Positions 57,999 through 64,000 of a stretch of 64,000 bases of DNA are shown here, piece after piece. The position numbers and the translations under genes were made by a program. Each line of letters starts with the position of its first letter. The stretch's first letter is position 1. Origin of the DNA: a virus; the IMG/VR virus record IMGVR_UViG_3300031920_000373, positions 37,490 through 101,489 of that record; one strand, written 5' to 3'. Below the pieces are notes generated by a model. The model was not told the DNA's origin. It worked only from the letters and a program-made list of their open reading frames with translations, and searched no databases.

Positions 57999-59174
57999 TT
58001 AGGCGGTCTTGTCACCAATGAGGGTCATACGTCTCGGATCCAAAGCAAACGCACCGCACAGGAGATCCATGGACATTGTGGTTTTCTTGCCACTCAGATC
58101 GTAACCTTTAACAATACGGATGCCAATACCATTGTTCGTGGCTGTAGCGGCAACTCTGTCTTCCGGAAGATCGAGCATGGGGAAGGCAACTGCAAGGGAT
58201 CTGTCATCCATTATAACACCGTGATGCTGAACATCTTTACCGGAGGCAACAATTGTAACCGCGGCTCCGTCGGGGATGATTTCAGTGATAGGGTCAACAA
58301 GCACAATGGATACAGTGGAATCGCCAGTAGTGGAACCAGTATCAGCAACAGCTGTTTTAACAATCAAGGGCCGTCTCACGCCTGCAATTTGGATTCTGTC
58401 ACCAACTACAAGAGTCAGGGCGGTAGCAATCACATCACAAGTCAAAATTTCATCACCGATGAGATTCTTGGTACCTGAGGCATTGTCGGTAGTGGTTACA
58501 TGTGTACCAACTGTATAAGCGGCCGTTTCAGTCGGATAGGCGATGCTGGAATAAAAGTCCATTCCCATAACACGTCCCATGTCAGCATTACGGAGGGTAG
58601 TCTCGCCGTCTGCGCCACGAGTCTGACTCTGGTTAAACCAGGTCTGTCCCAGGAGGGTTGCTTCAATGTCCAGATCGACCAGACAGAAACGATTCATGGC
58701 CAACTGTTGCAATGTGGCAGTTTTTCTCGCCAGGGCAATATCAGCGGCAGTTTCATAAAGGGCTGTACTGTAATAAGCACCCGCGGCCTGGAGAAGTTTG
58801 GTACCGATGTAGGCGTCAACTTTTTCAGCCAGTTTGTAGGTGGCGGGCTGGATGACCTGTTCTACGAAAGAGTCCAGATCAAGTGCGGCCTCTCGGGCAG
58901 TCACTTCGACGGAAATATCGAAATGTTTTTCAATACTCATGGGCCTGGTGCTGGAACCGATGGACTGAGTGGAGATAGTGGTTGAAAATTCATCAACCTC
59001 ATACTCACCGTGTGTCCTGAATGATACAGAGTCTCCGACTTTCCAGCCATTTGCCTTAGTGGTAAAATCACTGGTCTTGTCTTTGGCACAAAGAGGTGCA
59101 ATTACGAGTGCGTCCTCAAGATGTGTCAATGCCTCTGCGGCGATTATTGATGGGTGTTCCCAAATGTTTGCCAT
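57999..59174 (-). CDS. Major capsid protein, P22 coat-like
   Basis: 391 residues. MANIWEHPSIIAAEALTHLE and DALVIAPLCAKDKTSDFTTK match P22 coat-type proteins; GWKVGDSVSFRTHGEYEVD and ISVEVTAREAALDLDSFVEQ follow in family order. GGAGGAATTTAAA before ATG 59174. A dedicated strong promoter lies about 150 bases upstream, as expected for the most abundant protein. Confidence 0.9.
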   Translation of the reverse strand: MANIWEHPSIIAAEALTHLEDALVIAPLCAKDKTSDFTTKANGWKVGDSVSFRTHGEYEVDEFSTTISTQSIGSSTRPMSIEKHFDISVEVTAREAALDLDSFVEQVIQPATYKLAEKVDAYIGTKLLQAAGAYYSTALYETAADIALARKTATLQQLAMNRFCLVDLDIEATLLGQTWFNQSQTRGADGETTLRNADMGRVMGMDFYSSIAYPTETAAYTVGTHVTTTDNASGTKNLIGDEILTCDVIATALTLVVGDRIQIAGVRRPLIVKTAVADTGSTTGDSTVSIVLVDPITEIIPDGAAVTIVASGKDVQHHGVIMDDRSLAVAFPMLDLPEDRVAATATNNGIGIRIVKGYDLSGKKTTMSMDLLCGAFALDPRRMTLIGDKTA

Positions 59175-59263
59175 TTTAAATTCCTCCAATTAGAATTAAT
59201 TACGTTCACCGATCTAAATGAAAAGGGCCGGTGAAACTTTTACTTTTCAATAAATGTTTTTCC

Positions 59264-59306
59264 GACCCCCGAGGTCTTCAAAATGTTGGTGCTTCACAGA
59301 AACACC
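59264..59306 (-). other. Two hairpins in the coat-gene leader
   Basis: In the leader RNA, GGTGTTTC-TGT-GAAGCACC (59306-59288, 8 pairs with one G-U) is followed by GACC-TCGGG-GGTC (59276-59264). The leader is about 140 bases, long for this phage. They may stabilise the transcript or protect its 5' end. Confidence 0.5.
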
Positions 59307-59321
59307 CTTAGGCTATTTGAC

Positions 59322-59350
59322 ATAATAATTAATAAAAATACATAAGTCAA
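59322..59350 (-). promoter_or_regulatory. Strong leftward promoter for the coat gene
   Basis: On the minus strand TTGACT (59350-59345), 17-base spacer, TATTAT (59327-59322); 5/6 at both boxes, the best promoter in the window. It lies in the scaffold-coat gap. Confidence 0.75.
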
Positions 59351-59363
59351 GCCAAAAATAAAA

Positions 59364-60146
59364 TTATTTTTTAGCCTTGTTGTGTTTGTCCCTCAAGACA
59401 CGATAACCTTTCATATCACCTTTGGCGGCCAGTTCAGCAAGCTTTGTGGTGTGGTCACTATCATTTCCGCCAAGGCCTCCTTCAGCTCCAGCTCCTTCTG
59501 ATCCTGGCCAGTAATGGGGAGAGGTGTCTTTCAATCCTTCTATCCAATTTTTGGGGTTAAGAACTTTCTTGTCTTCGGTAACAGAGAGTTTACCCTCATT
59601 ATCCCGTGCCTCAATCTGTTTGCTGTCATCAAGGGAAAAGATTCCTCTCCCTCTAAGGATAATATCTTCAACAGCTTCCGATCGAACACCTTGTTTGATT
59701 GCTTCCGCCCTCAACCCATCATCAATGACTTTGGATTCAAAGAGAGTCTGGTAAGTGGTGCCATGTGTCTCGGCGACAGTCAACTTACCTGATAGTTCGG
59801 TTACCACTGTTTCATGGTCCGACATTAACTGGGAAGTTTTCTTTTCAATCAATTCCTCAACCGTTCCATCCTTCAGGAACTCTGCATCCTTGTTCTTTTC
59901 ATAGAAGTCGGTAGCCGTCTTGACAGTATCAACATTGATGCCGTCAAATTTCTTCAAGCTTTCCTGTAAAGTTTTCTTTTCTCCAAGAATCTCTGCGTTT
60001 TTGGTTTTAAGTCCTGAAACCGCTTCATCTACTTGGGTCTTGGCTGAGTTGGTCAAATTGACTGTTAACTCATCAACCTCAAGCTTATGGGCGTTTTCTA
60101 CCCTCTCCCTGATGTCTGTGTCTTCGATAAATGTAAAATCTGGCAT
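59364..60146 (-). CDS. Capsid scaffolding protein
   Basis: 260 residues, highly charged and helical with a coiled coil (LEVDELTVNLTNSAKTQVDE to GEKKTLQESLKKF) and a basic C-terminus (GYRVLRDKHNKAKK) that would contact the coat. Position immediately before the coat gene fits. GAGGAGAAAGAAA before ATG 60146. Confidence 0.82.
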   Translation of the reverse strand: MPDFTFIEDTDIRERVENAHKLEVDELTVNLTNSAKTQVDEAVSGLKTKNAEILGEKKTLQESLKKFDGINVDTVKTATDFYEKNKDAEFLKDGTVEELIEKKTSQLMSDHETVVTELSGKLTVAETHGTTYQTLFESKVIDDGLRAEAIKQGVRSEAVEDIILRGRGIFSLDDSKQIEARDNEGKLSVTEDKKVLNPKNWIEGLKDTSPHYWPGSEGAGAEGGLGGNDSDHTTKLAELAAKGDMKGYRVLRDKHNKAKK

Positions 60147-60205
60147 TTTCTTTCTCCTCAATTATGAAATCCTCAGGATTTCAGTTATGGAACCCCTGGT
60201 TCCTG

Positions 60206-60739
60206 TTATATTATCCTTTGTACATATAAATAAGCAGGACTATCAATATCACATCCCGCCCAATCTAAGCATTGTTCTCCCGCCAGTCTGGCACAAACGG
60301 CATTGTCAAAATCTTTGTAGGACCCAAGTTGTTTTTGCTTCTTATCTACACAAATTTGGGCTCTCCATTTATTTGTATTTTTATTCCAGAAAACACCTTT
60401 TACTCCACTGGTATTATTTTTAAAATTACCTCTATTCCTCATTTGGCATTGGTGAGATGCTTCCCTAAGGTTGGAAATCCAATTATGATGCCTATGTTCG
60501 GGTAGCTTATCAATGTGATCAATTTCACTTTCTGGCATATACCCATAATAAAAGAACCAAGCTAAACGATGGGCCTTATAAGATGCGCCCTCAACTATTA
60601 TTTGGATATAACCCTCAATACCCTTGCTTCCTGCGATATCTCCTATTTTTATACACACGTTCGGAGAAACTTTCCATTTAAATATACCTGTAAATTCATT
60701 ATATTCCAATAAATGAATTAATCTTTCATAGGTTAACAT
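60206..60739 (-). CDS. HNH homing endonuclease with AP2 domain
   Basis: 177 residues. HNH_3 core SYKAHRLAWFFYYGYMP, EIDHIDKLPEHRHHNWISNLR near 78; AP2-like NTSGVKGVFWNKNTNKWRAQ to LGSYKDFDNAV. The catalytic DH/N pattern is intact, unlike in the 14050 paralogue. Free-standing gene between portal-side and scaffold genes. The end (AGEQCLDWAGCDIDSPAYL) is the parent form of the remnant at 29671. Confidence 0.9.
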   Translation of the reverse strand: MLTYERLIHLLEYNEFTGIFKWKVSPNVCIKIGDIAGSKGIEGYIQIIVEGASYKAHRLAWFFYYGYMPESEIDHIDKLPEHRHHNWISNLREASHQCQMRNRGNFKNNTSGVKGVFWNKNTNKWRAQICVDKKQKQLGSYKDFDNAVCARLAGEQCLDWAGCDIDSPAYLYVQRII

Positions 60740-60741
60740 GA

Positions 60742-60849
60742 CTATATTTGATCCTCTGGACCTTCGCTTTTGGTCGCTGTGGATTTAACATTCGTTTCTT
60801 TTTTGGTAGTACTGGTGGATGCTGTAGTCTTTTTAGTGCCGTCATTCAT
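60742..60849 (-). CDS. Small Thr/Lys-rich protein, 35 aa
   Basis: MNDGTKKTTASTSTTKKE and on to SEGPEDQI. ATG 60849 overlaps the end of the portal gene (ATGAATGA-like), with AGAGGA upstream. Low complexity; it could be a real tail of the portal operon or non-functional. Confidence 0.42.
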   Translation of the reverse strand: MNDGTKKTTASTSTTKKETNVKSTATKSEGPEDQI

Positions 60850-62242
60850 TAAGATCATCATCCTCTTGGGGCGGTTTATTCTGAGCAAGCAATAACAGGT
60901 AATCATTGAAACCGATTGTCTGATCAAGCAGGCCTGAATAAACAAGGTATCTATGTACTACAGGAAGTGGAATAACTTCTTTACCGTACCCTTCAACTAT
61001 TTCCTTCAATACGGAAGAATCAGGAATACCCTGAGTTAATGACGAGGGAGCATCAAGTATAACATCCTCTTCATTATATCCTCCCCACTTACACATTGCG
61101 AGTAGGCCTTGTTTGATCGCATTCATTGCGGCAAGGTATACTGAATAAATGGAAGCTGATTGGGTGGACTGTCTGATCCTTAATGATTCTGCGGCTTCAA
61201 CACCTTTACGGGCATCAAGAATTGCAACTCCATGACGAATGGCCTCATCGTATAGATCACTTATATGATCCTTAACATGCGACAGTGCGGCTGTATCTGT
61301 TTGAGTATAAAATATCCGGGCGGCTTCATTGGGCAAAACAATCATGACAGATGAGCCGACTACATTGGGCAAATCCTTGTCGTTTGTTGCGCCGACTATG
61401 CATAGGGTGGGGTTGCATGACAAATACTCTGAATTGGCTAAATCCGCTTCTTTCCTGTATATCTGAACAGAGCAGTTGGCGACAGAGATAAGTGGAATCG
61501 GTTGCATATCAAAGGAGTTATTGATTGATCCTGCGAGGAATAAAGGAATCTCATCAATAGATTTCCCTCTGAATTTAGGAACAACTATGGATCCTTTAAT
61601 CTCTCCATCTTCTCCATGAAGTTTGGTATAGTAGTTACCCTTATCATCCAGGTGAAGGACTCGGAAAACATCTTCGGTTTCATGGGAAAAAGGGTCAAGG
61701 TCGGCAGGTTTTGTTTCTTTTAATACACCCAATGACAGGCTTCTTTCATCCTCAACCAGTGCTGTCTGCCAATTAATGAACTCCTCTGCCTTGTATTGGA
61801 CAAATCGGAACTCATTCTTGGCAGAAATAATATCAACCAATATAGGAGATCGTCCAGTCTGGAATATTTCAATGATCATATCAAGGAAAAGTTGTTGTAA
61901 TGATCTCCCATCCTTGGTTGCTGTCTTTATAATGTATTCAAGTTTCTTGGGAACGTTGAACTCAGGGAGTTTGGTAATGACAATGCCTAAGGCTCCCTGT
62001 AAGGCGTATGAAGTGATTAATGGGAAATGGGCACGTTCCACGTAAGGAGCATATGCACTCGCATAATCTCCGGTCATTCCAGAAGGACGGGGAAGATACG
62101 CTTCTCCCTTTGCTTTGACAACATCCTCACCGTCCATACAGTCACGGATTTTTGCCCAAGCGTTTTTAAATTTAATATAATCAGGGTGCTCCGTATCTAC
62201 AGAACCTGTATAAAAATTTGCGGTGGGTTTGTCATCAGGCAT
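60842..62242 (-). CDS. Portal protein, DUF4055-type
   Basis: 466 residues. HPDYIKFKNAWAKIRDCMDG and GEAYLPRPSGM then YVERAHFPLITSYALQGALG are the DUF4055 start; GRSPILVDI, LANSEYLSCNPTLCIVG and ESLRIRQSTQSASI follow. Dodecameric DNA gate of the head. Between terL and the scaffold, the normal order. Confidence 0.9.
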   Translation of the reverse strand: MPDDKPTANFYTGSVDTEHPDYIKFKNAWAKIRDCMDGEDVVKAKGEAYLPRPSGMTGDYASAYAPYVERAHFPLITSYALQGALGIVITKLPEFNVPKKLEYIIKTATKDGRSLQQLFLDMIIEIFQTGRSPILVDIISAKNEFRFVQYKAEEFINWQTALVEDERSLSLGVLKETKPADLDPFSHETEDVFRVLHLDDKGNYYTKLHGEDGEIKGSIVVPKFRGKSIDEIPLFLAGSINNSFDMQPIPLISVANCSVQIYRKEADLANSEYLSCNPTLCIVGATNDKDLPNVVGSSVMIVLPNEAARIFYTQTDTAALSHVKDHISDLYDEAIRHGVAILDARKGVEAAESLRIRQSTQSASIYSVYLAAMNAIKQGLLAMCKWGGYNEEDVILDAPSSLTQGIPDSSVLKEIVEGYGKEVIPLPVVHRYLVYSGLLDQTIGFNDYLLLLAQNKPPQEDDDLNE

Positions 62243-62245
62243 GTC

Positions 62246-62521
62246 TTATCTCCTTTTTGTTACACCGGGAATATTCGTGTTGCTTCGGATAATTGCTCCA
62301 CCGGAACGAGTAGAACTGGCTTTTTGTACATTTGCCTTTCTTCTGGGAGCAGGTTTTGCTACCTTATTAAAAGATTTTGCACGAGTTTCCGCTTGCTTTG
62401 CCATTTTCTTTGCTTCTGTTTTCGCTCCCTTTAACCTTGCGGGGGATTGTTTGATTACTTCTGCCTCTGCCAATGCGTTTGCATCTGATTCCCTTTGCCA
62501 TTTTTTTTCATTCCATGCCAT
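62246..62521 (-). CDS. Small basic protein next to terL, 91 aa
   Basis: MAWNEKKWQRESDANALAEA then Lys/Arg/Ala-rich with TRSGGAII. Very basic, possibly nucleic-acid-binding, in the terL-portal gap. No family recognised. Confidence 0.6.
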   Translation of the reverse strand: MAWNEKKWQRESDANALAEAEVIKQSPARLKGAKTEAKKMAKQAETRAKSFNKVAKPAPRRKANVQKASSTRSGGAIIRSNTNIPGVTKRR

Positions 62522-62522
62522 G

Positions 62523-64000
62523 TTAACACCCCACCTTTCTTCTTTTTAATGTGGTTAATTTTCTTGCCACAAGATATCTCAAGGAATCCATGCAGTGGTC
62601 TTCTAAATCAGTATTTGACACAAGACCTCCATTTGCATAGTACATCCCTGCTTGTTCCGTTGTCAAATTATATACTGCTTTTTCTTTTTCGGAGGTCCCA
62701 TCCACACTTGTAACTACAAGTTGCCGAATCTTGTGGTCGTCCTCTAAAGATTTTTTTACATATTGGACATTCTCTTTTAATTTTTTTGGATTCTTCTCTG
62801 CATTCAATTGAGCAATATTTCTGTGAGGAACTTGCTGGAGTAAAATCATTACAACAATAAAGGCACGTGTATTTTCGTTTAAGTGTTTTTTTAACACACT
62901 TTTCCATATTAATTCTAAGCTGTTCTTTACCTTTATCAGATTTTCTCCATCGTTTAAGTGTGTCGTGCAAATCCCCACCTTCTTTAAGTCTTTCTTGCAT
63001 ATGGAATCTTGCGTGATCGCTGCCATGAAGGAGTTCAAGATTTTTACGACTGCAATCATATTTAATTCTGTTTTTGTGGTGTAATTCATAATCTTTAGGA
63101 ATTGGTCCAATATAATATTCCCATTTAACTCTGTGCAATAATGTCTCCCCATCAAAAATTTCACTATGACCTGGACTGCATTCAAAATATCCTTCATCGA
63201 CACTAATGAATTTGATTTCTTGGAAATATGTAATGAGTCTTGACATAAAACATCTCCTTCTTTTAATTCACATAAAGGAACAAGTCCTTTGGAATTTATA
63301 AATATCTTGTGATTGTGCTTTCCTTCTAATTGCAAATTGTTTGATAATGTTACACAATAAGTTCTAACTTTTCCTGAAATTCCAGACTTAATGACTTTTC
63401 TTAAACCTATTGGTGTATGAACTAAATCACCAATTTTAATGTTTTCAATTAGAACCTGTCCTTTTTCAGTCTTTACAAAAGTGCCTGCAACAAAACAATC
63501 AATGTCCTCTGGCTTCTTTTTATCTCTCTGCATGATGGGCAATGTCCTTATATGGTGTTGGGCTTGCGGAAAGAAGTATAAATGAGGAGACTCCAATTCT
63601 TGTCTCTTTGCCGCACCCAACATTTGTCTTATAATTGACCATCCTGCTATCCTTGATCCTGATCCTTTATATGCTTTGGTCCAATAACAACCATGTGATT
63701 CTAAATTGCTACCAATGGATGTTCCGTCCCTAACATCATAAATGGACGTATCAGCGGGACCAGGAACACATCGAGTATTATATTCGGTCATCATATTATT
63801 GTCAATAGCTAATACACGGGCGGCGATTTGTTGTGAGGTTGCTTGGTCTCCCTCATTGATAGTTCCATTCCATCCATATAATTCATTTGGAACAATTATT
63901 GATCCTCTGGGAATATAAGGAACTCTCATTCCACCTAGGTGATTGGGATTGGGTTGTTCTCCGTTTGCTTCAAATCCATATGTAACTGCCCATGGCTTAG
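62523..64000 (-). CDS. Terminase large subunit, nuclease-domain part, interrupted by an intein (cut by window edge)
   Basis: The frame is open to the right edge, so the N-terminal ATPase lies outside. The visible extein has GMRVPYIPRGSIIVPNELYG, ESHGCYWTKAYKGSGSR and PHLYFFPQAQHHIRTLPIMQRD before the intein and TDLEDHCMDSLRYLVARK after it. The spliced joint PEDID-TDLEDH is the third acidic motif of the RNase H-like packaging nuclease. The C-terminus is basic (KRRKVGC). Confidence 0.88.
   Translation of the reverse strand, partial: KPWAVTYGFEANGEQPNPNHLGGMRVPYIPRGSIIVPNELYGWNGTINEGDQATSQQIAARVLAIDNNMMTEYNTRCVPGPADTSIYDVRDGTSIGSNLESHGCYWTKAYKGSGSRIAGWSIIRQMLGAAKRQELESPHLYFFPQAQHHIRTLPIMQRDKKKPEDIDCFVAGTFVKTEKGQVLIENIKIGDLVHTPIGLRKVIKSGISGKVRTYCVTLSNNLQLEGKHNHKIFINSKGLVPLCELKEGDVLCQDSLHISKKSNSLVSMKDILNAVQVIVKFLMGRHYCTELNGNIILDQFLKIMNYTTKTELNMIAVVKILNSFMAAITQDSICKKDLKKVGICTTHLNDGENLIKVKNSLELIWKSVLKKHLNENTRAFIVVMILLQQVPHRNIAQLNAEKNPKKLKENVQYVKKSLEDDHKIRQLVVTSVDGTSEKEKAVYNLTTEQAGMYYANGGLVSNTDLEDHCMDSLRYLVARKLTTLKRRKVGC
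62613..63497 (-). mobile_element. Intein in the terminase nuclease domain
   Basis: 295 residues, Cys1 (CFVAGTFVKTEKG at 63497) to the C-terminal Asn (NGGLVSN, 62613) with Thr as +1. Block A and B (IENIKIGDLVHTP, LEGKHNHKIFI) and the C-terminal TEQAGMYYANGG block are intact. No in-frame endonuclease domain is visible in the middle (about residues 230-415 of the precursor): there the intein frame runs over an HNH gene in another frame (62668-63246) and stays open. Confidence 0.9.
62668..63246 (-). CDS. HNH endonuclease encoded inside the terL intein in a different frame
   Basis: 192 residues. HNH core LLHRVKWEYYIGPIPKDYELHH-type: GPIPKDYELHHKNRIKYD near 50, NLELLHGSDHARFH near 68; then CLYCCNDFTPASSSQKYCSIEC and CPICKKIFRGRPQ zinc fingers. 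It starts at ATG 63246 with GAAGGAGATG seven bases upstream, a full Shine-Dalgarno site whose bases code for KEGDV of the intein. Its frame is shifted relative to the intein. It is probably the homing endonuclease of this intein made as a separate protein. Confidence 0.88.
   Translation of the reverse strand: MSRLITYFQEIKFISVDEGYFECSPGHSEIFDGETLLHRVKWEYYIGPIPKDYELHHKNRIKYDCSRKNLELLHGSDHARFHMQERLKEGGDLHDTLKRWRKSDKGKEQLRINMEKCVKKTLKRKYTCLYCCNDFTPASSSQKYCSIECREESKKIKRECPICKKIFRGRPQDSATCSYKCGWDLRKRKSSI

Follow-up and report, generated by a model that had tools for sequence, protein, structure and literature searches.

The window analysed here is a stretch of viral DNA of 64,000 nucleotides that ends where its source contig, a 101,489-base virus record, also ends. 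It raises the question of whether one segment of the large terminase gene (terL) can serve both as an intein and, in another reading frame, as the gene of a homing endonuclease. In canonical full-length inteins, such as those of mycobacteriophage TerL (PMC5050341), one polypeptide includes the endonuclease as an in-frame domain, whereas the window carries an HNH-type endonuclease as a separate gene that overlaps the intein. The original prediction had placed a 192-codon HNH gene out of frame inside a 295-codon intein, and re-reading of the sequence confirmed the coordinates, strand, start, ribosome-binding site and lengths of both. We consider it about 80% probable that the element is a working mobile intein with a homing endonuclease that is encoded by an overprinted gene and translated separately, instead of forming an intein domain. 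This reading builds on the anatomy, the stop-free overlap in a single frame, the switch of constraint between frames and the patchy distribution with exact empty sites, all of which were observed by computation.

All features of the window described below lie on the minus strand, where the terL frame has no stop from 63998, at the contig end, down to 62523. The N-extein (63498..63998) is the C-terminal part of the nuclease domain of the phage large terminase, in which the intein is inserted; it ends in ...KKKPEDID, matches phrog_30251 (terminase) and shows 63-81% identity to homologues. The intein itself (62613..63497, 295 codons) begins with the Cys codon at 63497-63495 and closes with Ser-Asn, the Asn codon ending at 62613. 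It is followed by Thr (+1) and the C-extein, TDLEDHCMDSLRY... (62523..62612, stop 62523), which was assigned from the reading frame and from comparison with empty sites. TerL is incomplete in the window since the contig ends at 64000, and its N-terminal half sits at the contig's other end. That half, at the contig start (L093), is homologous to the one in L001, a relative that has a second, conventional in-frame LAGLIDADG intein.

Both ends of the intein carry splicing blocks, as had been predicted, and Pfam and AlphaFold agree on this point. The N-terminal splicing region with blocks A and B occupies 63231..63497 (pLDDT 92-97), and the C-terminal region with blocks F and G, VYNLTTEQAGMYYANGGLVSN, occupies 62613..62729 (pLDDT 84-93; Intein_splicing). 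The Hint ends were given a pLDDT >90 and, in a PDB comparison, matched gp41-1 (E=1.7e-6) and DnaB inteins; the Pfam matches in the terL frame, Intein_splicing and Hint_2, were slightly below the curated cut-offs. The segment has Cys1, the block EGKHNHKIFI (A/B, T..H) and a terminal Ser-Asn followed by Thr, with Ser instead of His as the penultimate residue. By its motifs and modelled structure, 62613-63497 is a class-1-type intein. It also differs from a split intein, in which N- and C-intein lie in separate open reading frames, because it forms a single open frame. TerL is essential in tailed phages, and the named phages Highwayman, TJE1 and LS06 carry such an insert in it, which implies that splicing takes place.

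Over the middle of the intein, the other frame contains the HNH gene (62668..63246, 192 aa), which starts with ATG at 63246 and ends with TAA at 62668, the latter within the Val-Tyr-Asn codons of intein block F. The gene starts at intein phase +2, so that the intein is read in the +1 frame of the HNH. The protein was predicted by AlphaFold with a pLDDT of 88.8, and its HNH_3 domain (63007..63141) was matched by Pfam with E=1.8e-11, which bears out the description of this frame as a convincing HNH gene. PF13392 (HNH_3) was found in 22/22 family members, and the alignment showed invariant catalytic residues (H38, H56, H57, N69 and H78) together with two invariant Cys4 zinc-finger-like motifs at 62704..62865 (C128/C131/C145/C149 and C160/C163/C177/C181). 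A Foldseek comparison of the HNH with the PDB gave no match with E <1, and its identity therefore rests on Pfam and the conserved residues. The intein-frame reading across the gene (the shadow, 62730..63230) is stop-free, and AlphaFold predicted no fold for it (pLDDT 33-62), in line with the earlier view that it holds no domain. Elsewhere in the window, at 60206-60739 and directly behind the portal gene, lies a free-standing HNH_3 plus AP2 gene of the homing-endonuclease type.

For this element we infer splicing, internal initiation and site-specific cleavage. Ribosomes on terL would read through to give TerL-N/intein/TerL-C, whose Hint parts at both ends would fold and splice, and the stop-free middle would be accepted as a disordered linker located where inteins usually carry their endonuclease. 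Other ribosomes would use the internal Shine-Dalgarno sequence and the ATG at 63246 to produce a free endonuclease with HNH_3 and zinc-finger parts. This enzyme would cut intein-less terL alleles close to the empty site, and repair of the cut terL would copy in the whole element. Two products from one DNA would lead to selection that maintains the intein frame at the ends and the HNH frame in the middle, and that also keeps intein-frame stops out of that middle.

The Shine-Dalgarno sequence AAGGAG (63254..63259) stands 7 nt ahead of the HNH ATG, within intein codons Lys-Glu-Gly-Asp, and is retained at that distance in L001 and L013; internal initiation is thus likely in the window, as judged from these signals. 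Among related loci with the same layout (nested loci), ATG was present at the predicted HNH start in 114/127, versus 60/138 control windows. A Shine-Dalgarno match of at least 6 bases was found at 16/126 nested starts, versus 3/138 control windows and 15/27 non-nested genes. Since a strong Shine-Dalgarno sequence is not universal among nested loci, initiation may differ between members, and the other HNH starts may use weaker or different signals. The HNH might instead be made by ribosomal frameshifting off the intein frame, which would yield a TerL-N/IntN-HNH fusion and not a free protein. A -1 shift would reach the HNH phase, and in L004, L058 and L063 the HNH frame runs well upstream of the start. 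We regard frameshifting as unlikely, however, because the HNH frame of the window has a stop 7 codons ahead of the ATG, the ATG is kept across the loci at the above frequency, and the window, L001 and L013 have a Shine-Dalgarno sequence. Inspection by eye revealed no slippery heptamer.

The same arrangement recurs well beyond the window. Loci were classed by whether the N- and C-terminal Hint blocks flank the HNH and by the frame of these blocks; a viral search with the HNH profile gave 80 loci, and all searches together gave 162 nested loci with 132 distinct HNH sequences from phages, prophages and archaeal elements. The arrangement in the window is therefore no singleton but part of a widespread class. 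The intein reads the +1 frame of the HNH in 162/162 of these loci and the +2 frame in none. An HNH in frame with the intein, the finding that would have turned the window into a frameshift error, is likewise absent from all of them. An HNH-independent search with the intein C-block found 79 loci, of which 71 were scored nested and 2 were nested by eye, the rest being 4 mini-inteins without HNH and 2 loci cut by contig ends; as the query was made from nested inteins, 73/79 does not represent a census of TerL inteins. The exteins are terminases from several Pfam families. Named carriers include Acinetobacter phage Highwayman, Tetrasphaera phage TJE1, Rhodobacteraceae phage LS06 and a Halobacterium plasmid, the last of which emerged from a plasmid search for non-phage homes; in the named carrier records examined, terL is annotated alone and the HNH is left out. 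Carrier contigs are also labelled Bacteroides, Parabacteroides, Thermoplasmatales, Methanomethylophilaceae, Acidobacteria, Planctomycetota and others. The archaeal carriers of the nested layout are L192, L201 and L205 (the Halobacterium plasmid and Methanomethylophilaceae and Thermoplasmatales MAGs). In L146 (69-3288), a single 1073-codon terL frame holds two inteins, and both of them have an overprinted HNH of their own in +1.

The stop-free shadow had been called improbable by chance, and this view was upheld by codon shuffling. Synonymous shuffling that kept the HNH protein and its own codons gave a mean of 3.4 intein-frame stops and P(0)=0.006 for the window; with phage codon usage, the mean was 7.4 and P(0)=5e-5. 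Across 64 nested loci, 0 intein-frame stops were found versus 133 expected from their own codons, whereas 27 non-nested relatives, which are free-standing or lie between split halves, had 180 versus 182 expected. The nested intein frame contained 0 stops in 26,480 codons and was stop-free in all 132 distinct loci, the class being defined partly by openness but its flanking-block criterion being independent of it. The same frame (+1) in homologues contained 187 stops in 5,007 codons (free-standing) and 125 in 3,134 (split-intein). The avoidance of stops extends to the protein: Met followed by an A-starting codon occurred 0/123 times in nested genes versus 22/59 in non-nested genes, and NTA codons were rare in nested genes, with NTA before a purine at 0/169 versus 133/254 in the others. 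Because Met never precedes an A-starting codon in nested loci, the amino-acid choice of the HNH itself, as read from these sequences, bends toward keeping the intein frame open. Free HNH genes have a mean of about 8 stops in +1 and about 25 in +2; +1 is thus the cheapest frame to clear of stops, which would account for the use of the same frame across several origins.

Substitution patterns show that purifying selection acts on the two frames in different parts of the element. In a first set of pairs, in which one locus pair was counted twice, 61% of substitutions in the splicing flanks fell at intein codon position 3, and 50% of those in the overlap fell at HNH position 3 (intein position 2), with HNH position 2 the lowest. 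In a second set of 18 pairs, the HNH-frame dN/dS was 0.26 pooled. The intein-frame dN/dS in that set was mostly 0.05-0.3 in the N-terminal splicing flank, whereas in the overlap most pairs had a value of about 1 (0.5-1.3; 2.0 in a single very close pair). On this sequence evidence, constraint switches frame, the splicing domain being held in the intein frame and the middle in the HNH frame. The intein-frame middle, with a dN/dS of about 1 and never a stop, thus appears to be selected for openness and not for amino acids. This supports the original claim that selection keeps both frames open. Conservation of shadow amino acids was considered and rejected, as an invariant Gly proved to be the echo of an invariant HNH Trp codon (T-GGN). 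A frame that stays stop-free across very divergent relatives is expected if the full precursor must be made.

In L178, L181 and L198, which represent one lineage in three assemblies, an internal stop cuts the HNH and the intein frame is fully open, which indicates that this frame is maintained in its own right. L219 and L221 were rejected as further broken HNHs because their stops fall past the HNH end. This broken lineage, together with the four mini-inteins without HNH, would suit the view that the intein has trapped a decaying HNH gene, which is now dead or neutral and no longer drives homing. Such a view is quite improbable given the pooled HNH-frame dN/dS, the invariant catalytic and zinc residues, and the intact HNH in nearly all 132 distinct copies.

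The distribution of the element is patchy, as expected of a mobile one. Among TerLs 63-81% identical to that of the window, 11 are empty exactly at the junction between KPEDID and TDLEDH (L174, L176, L180 and others), five records and L001 have an intein at the same place, and one record has an intein at a neighbouring site; carriers and empty TerLs are interspersed. A free HNH of the window family lies directly behind terL in two of the empty relatives, L187 and L190. Epa43, suggested as a carrier by tblastn, was rejected because its site is empty. Homologues of the HNH thus adjoin terL or sit inside it, which raises the question of whether the HNH serves DNA packaging with TerL, as HK97 gp74 does, and not homing. 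We find this highly unlikely, because the HNH is sporadic (present behind terL in PAE1 and absent in YuA), is absent from most close TerL relatives, and is broken in a lineage with an open TerL.

HNH open reading frames are common in group I introns, and the middle could in principle be an RNA intron within the intein gene, in which case the shadow would never be translated. Rfam, including group I/II intron structures, gave no match anywhere in 59000-64000, and an intron could do without an open frame, yet here it stays open and in phase throughout, which leaves this explanation with a very slim probability. That the frame is open by chance, or that misassembly shifted the frame of an ordinary intein with an in-frame HNH, has a negligible probability, given the shuffles for the window (0.006 to 5e-5), the two compensating errors that misassembly would need, and the 132 distinct sequences with this layout, which come from independent assemblies and isolates.

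The overprinted, separately translated endonuclease gene also has neighbouring states. Dassa et al. in 2009 reportedly described "fractured genes", in which a free endonuclease gene separates the two halves of a split intein. MIJ3 PolB provides an example with an HNH (PMC6892783). These resemble the window in having a free-standing endonuclease gene between N- and C-intein; they differ in that their halves are separate polypeptides joined by trans-splicing, whereas the window has one continuous open frame. The split state was found in about 16 relatives, including Lactobacillus phage CL2, in which the IntC-TerLC piece is unannotated, and Vibrio phage 1.238.A, in which it is called a "hedgehog/hint domain protein". 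Split TerL inteins with an HNH gene of the window family between the halves were seen in L010, L022, L040, L055, L061, L071, L081, L193, L207, L208, L212 and L218. L080 (550-3025) has a contiguous mini-intein terL with a free HNH of the window family directly behind, as if the endonuclease had left the intein; L096 (2622-3090) has a 156-aa TerL intein with an HNH remnant (31 bits), possibly in decay toward a mini-intein. On a quick HNH tree, which has many long branches and counts changes but not their direction, the nested state needs 17 changes, at least six of them on starred branches. A split intein would let an HNH gene occupy the loop before the stops were lost. On balance, we lean toward a widespread and as yet undescribed class of true inteins that occupy terminases of phage, prophage and archaeal origin, and in which an overprinted, separately translated HNH lies in the cheapest stop-free frame. 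The layout would have arisen or been lost several times, with split inteins and free genes behind terL as neighbouring states and TerL never lost.

The closest known parallel is the ShiLan domain, a hidden out-of-frame HNH in a mycobacteriophage methylase (Arsenault, Gosselin, Gogarten 2025, PMC11855218). Like the window element, it combines an HNH with zinc fingers in the other frame of a stop-free insert, at the same frame offset, and is patchy and spread horizontally; its HNH is weakly related by profile to the window family. Unlike the window element, whose HNH is bordered by true Hint splicing domains and whose target is TerL, the ShiLan insert lacks both an intein splicing domain and a ribosome-binding site, and it is presumed to remain part of the protein. 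The arrangement had been taken to be undescribed; this may hold for its position inside an intein, whereas a hidden out-of-frame phage HNH was already known. No description of an out-of-frame endonuclease inside an intein was found in the CC-licensed PMC literature. The conclusion section of PMC11855218 cites, for overlapping frames, a preprint on actinophage inteins with "non-canonical architecture" and Gorbalenya 1998, so part of the present arrangement may be described already. Canonical inteins share with the window the Hint fold, insertion at a conserved TerL motif and the usual loop for the endonuclease (PMC6801210), but the endonuclease lies outside the intein frame in the window and in all 162 nested loci. 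Group I introns with HNH open reading frames and collaborative homing (PMC10448857) likewise pair a selfish splicing element with a separately translated HNH; the window element differs in that it splices, as we propose, at the protein level and its endonuclease region must stay open in the host frame.

The nested layout would represent a third coupling of a splicing element to a homing endonuclease, beside an endonuclease domain in frame and a gene placed between the two parts of a split intein. Overprinting lets intein and HNH evolve in different frames and at different expression levels. With more than 100 natural replicates in a constant frame, these loci offer a good system for studying the origin of overlapping genes, and they help to separate selection on two frames, as one frame must merely lack stops. 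Nested inteins also bear on the origin of split inteins. Their splicing domains appear to tolerate disordered inserts of about 170 residues, which would be useful for intein engineering if splicing is borne out. Judged from the sequences, the nested layout is genuine and has recurred, and it gives a selfish insert a means of carrying its predicted mobility enzyme.
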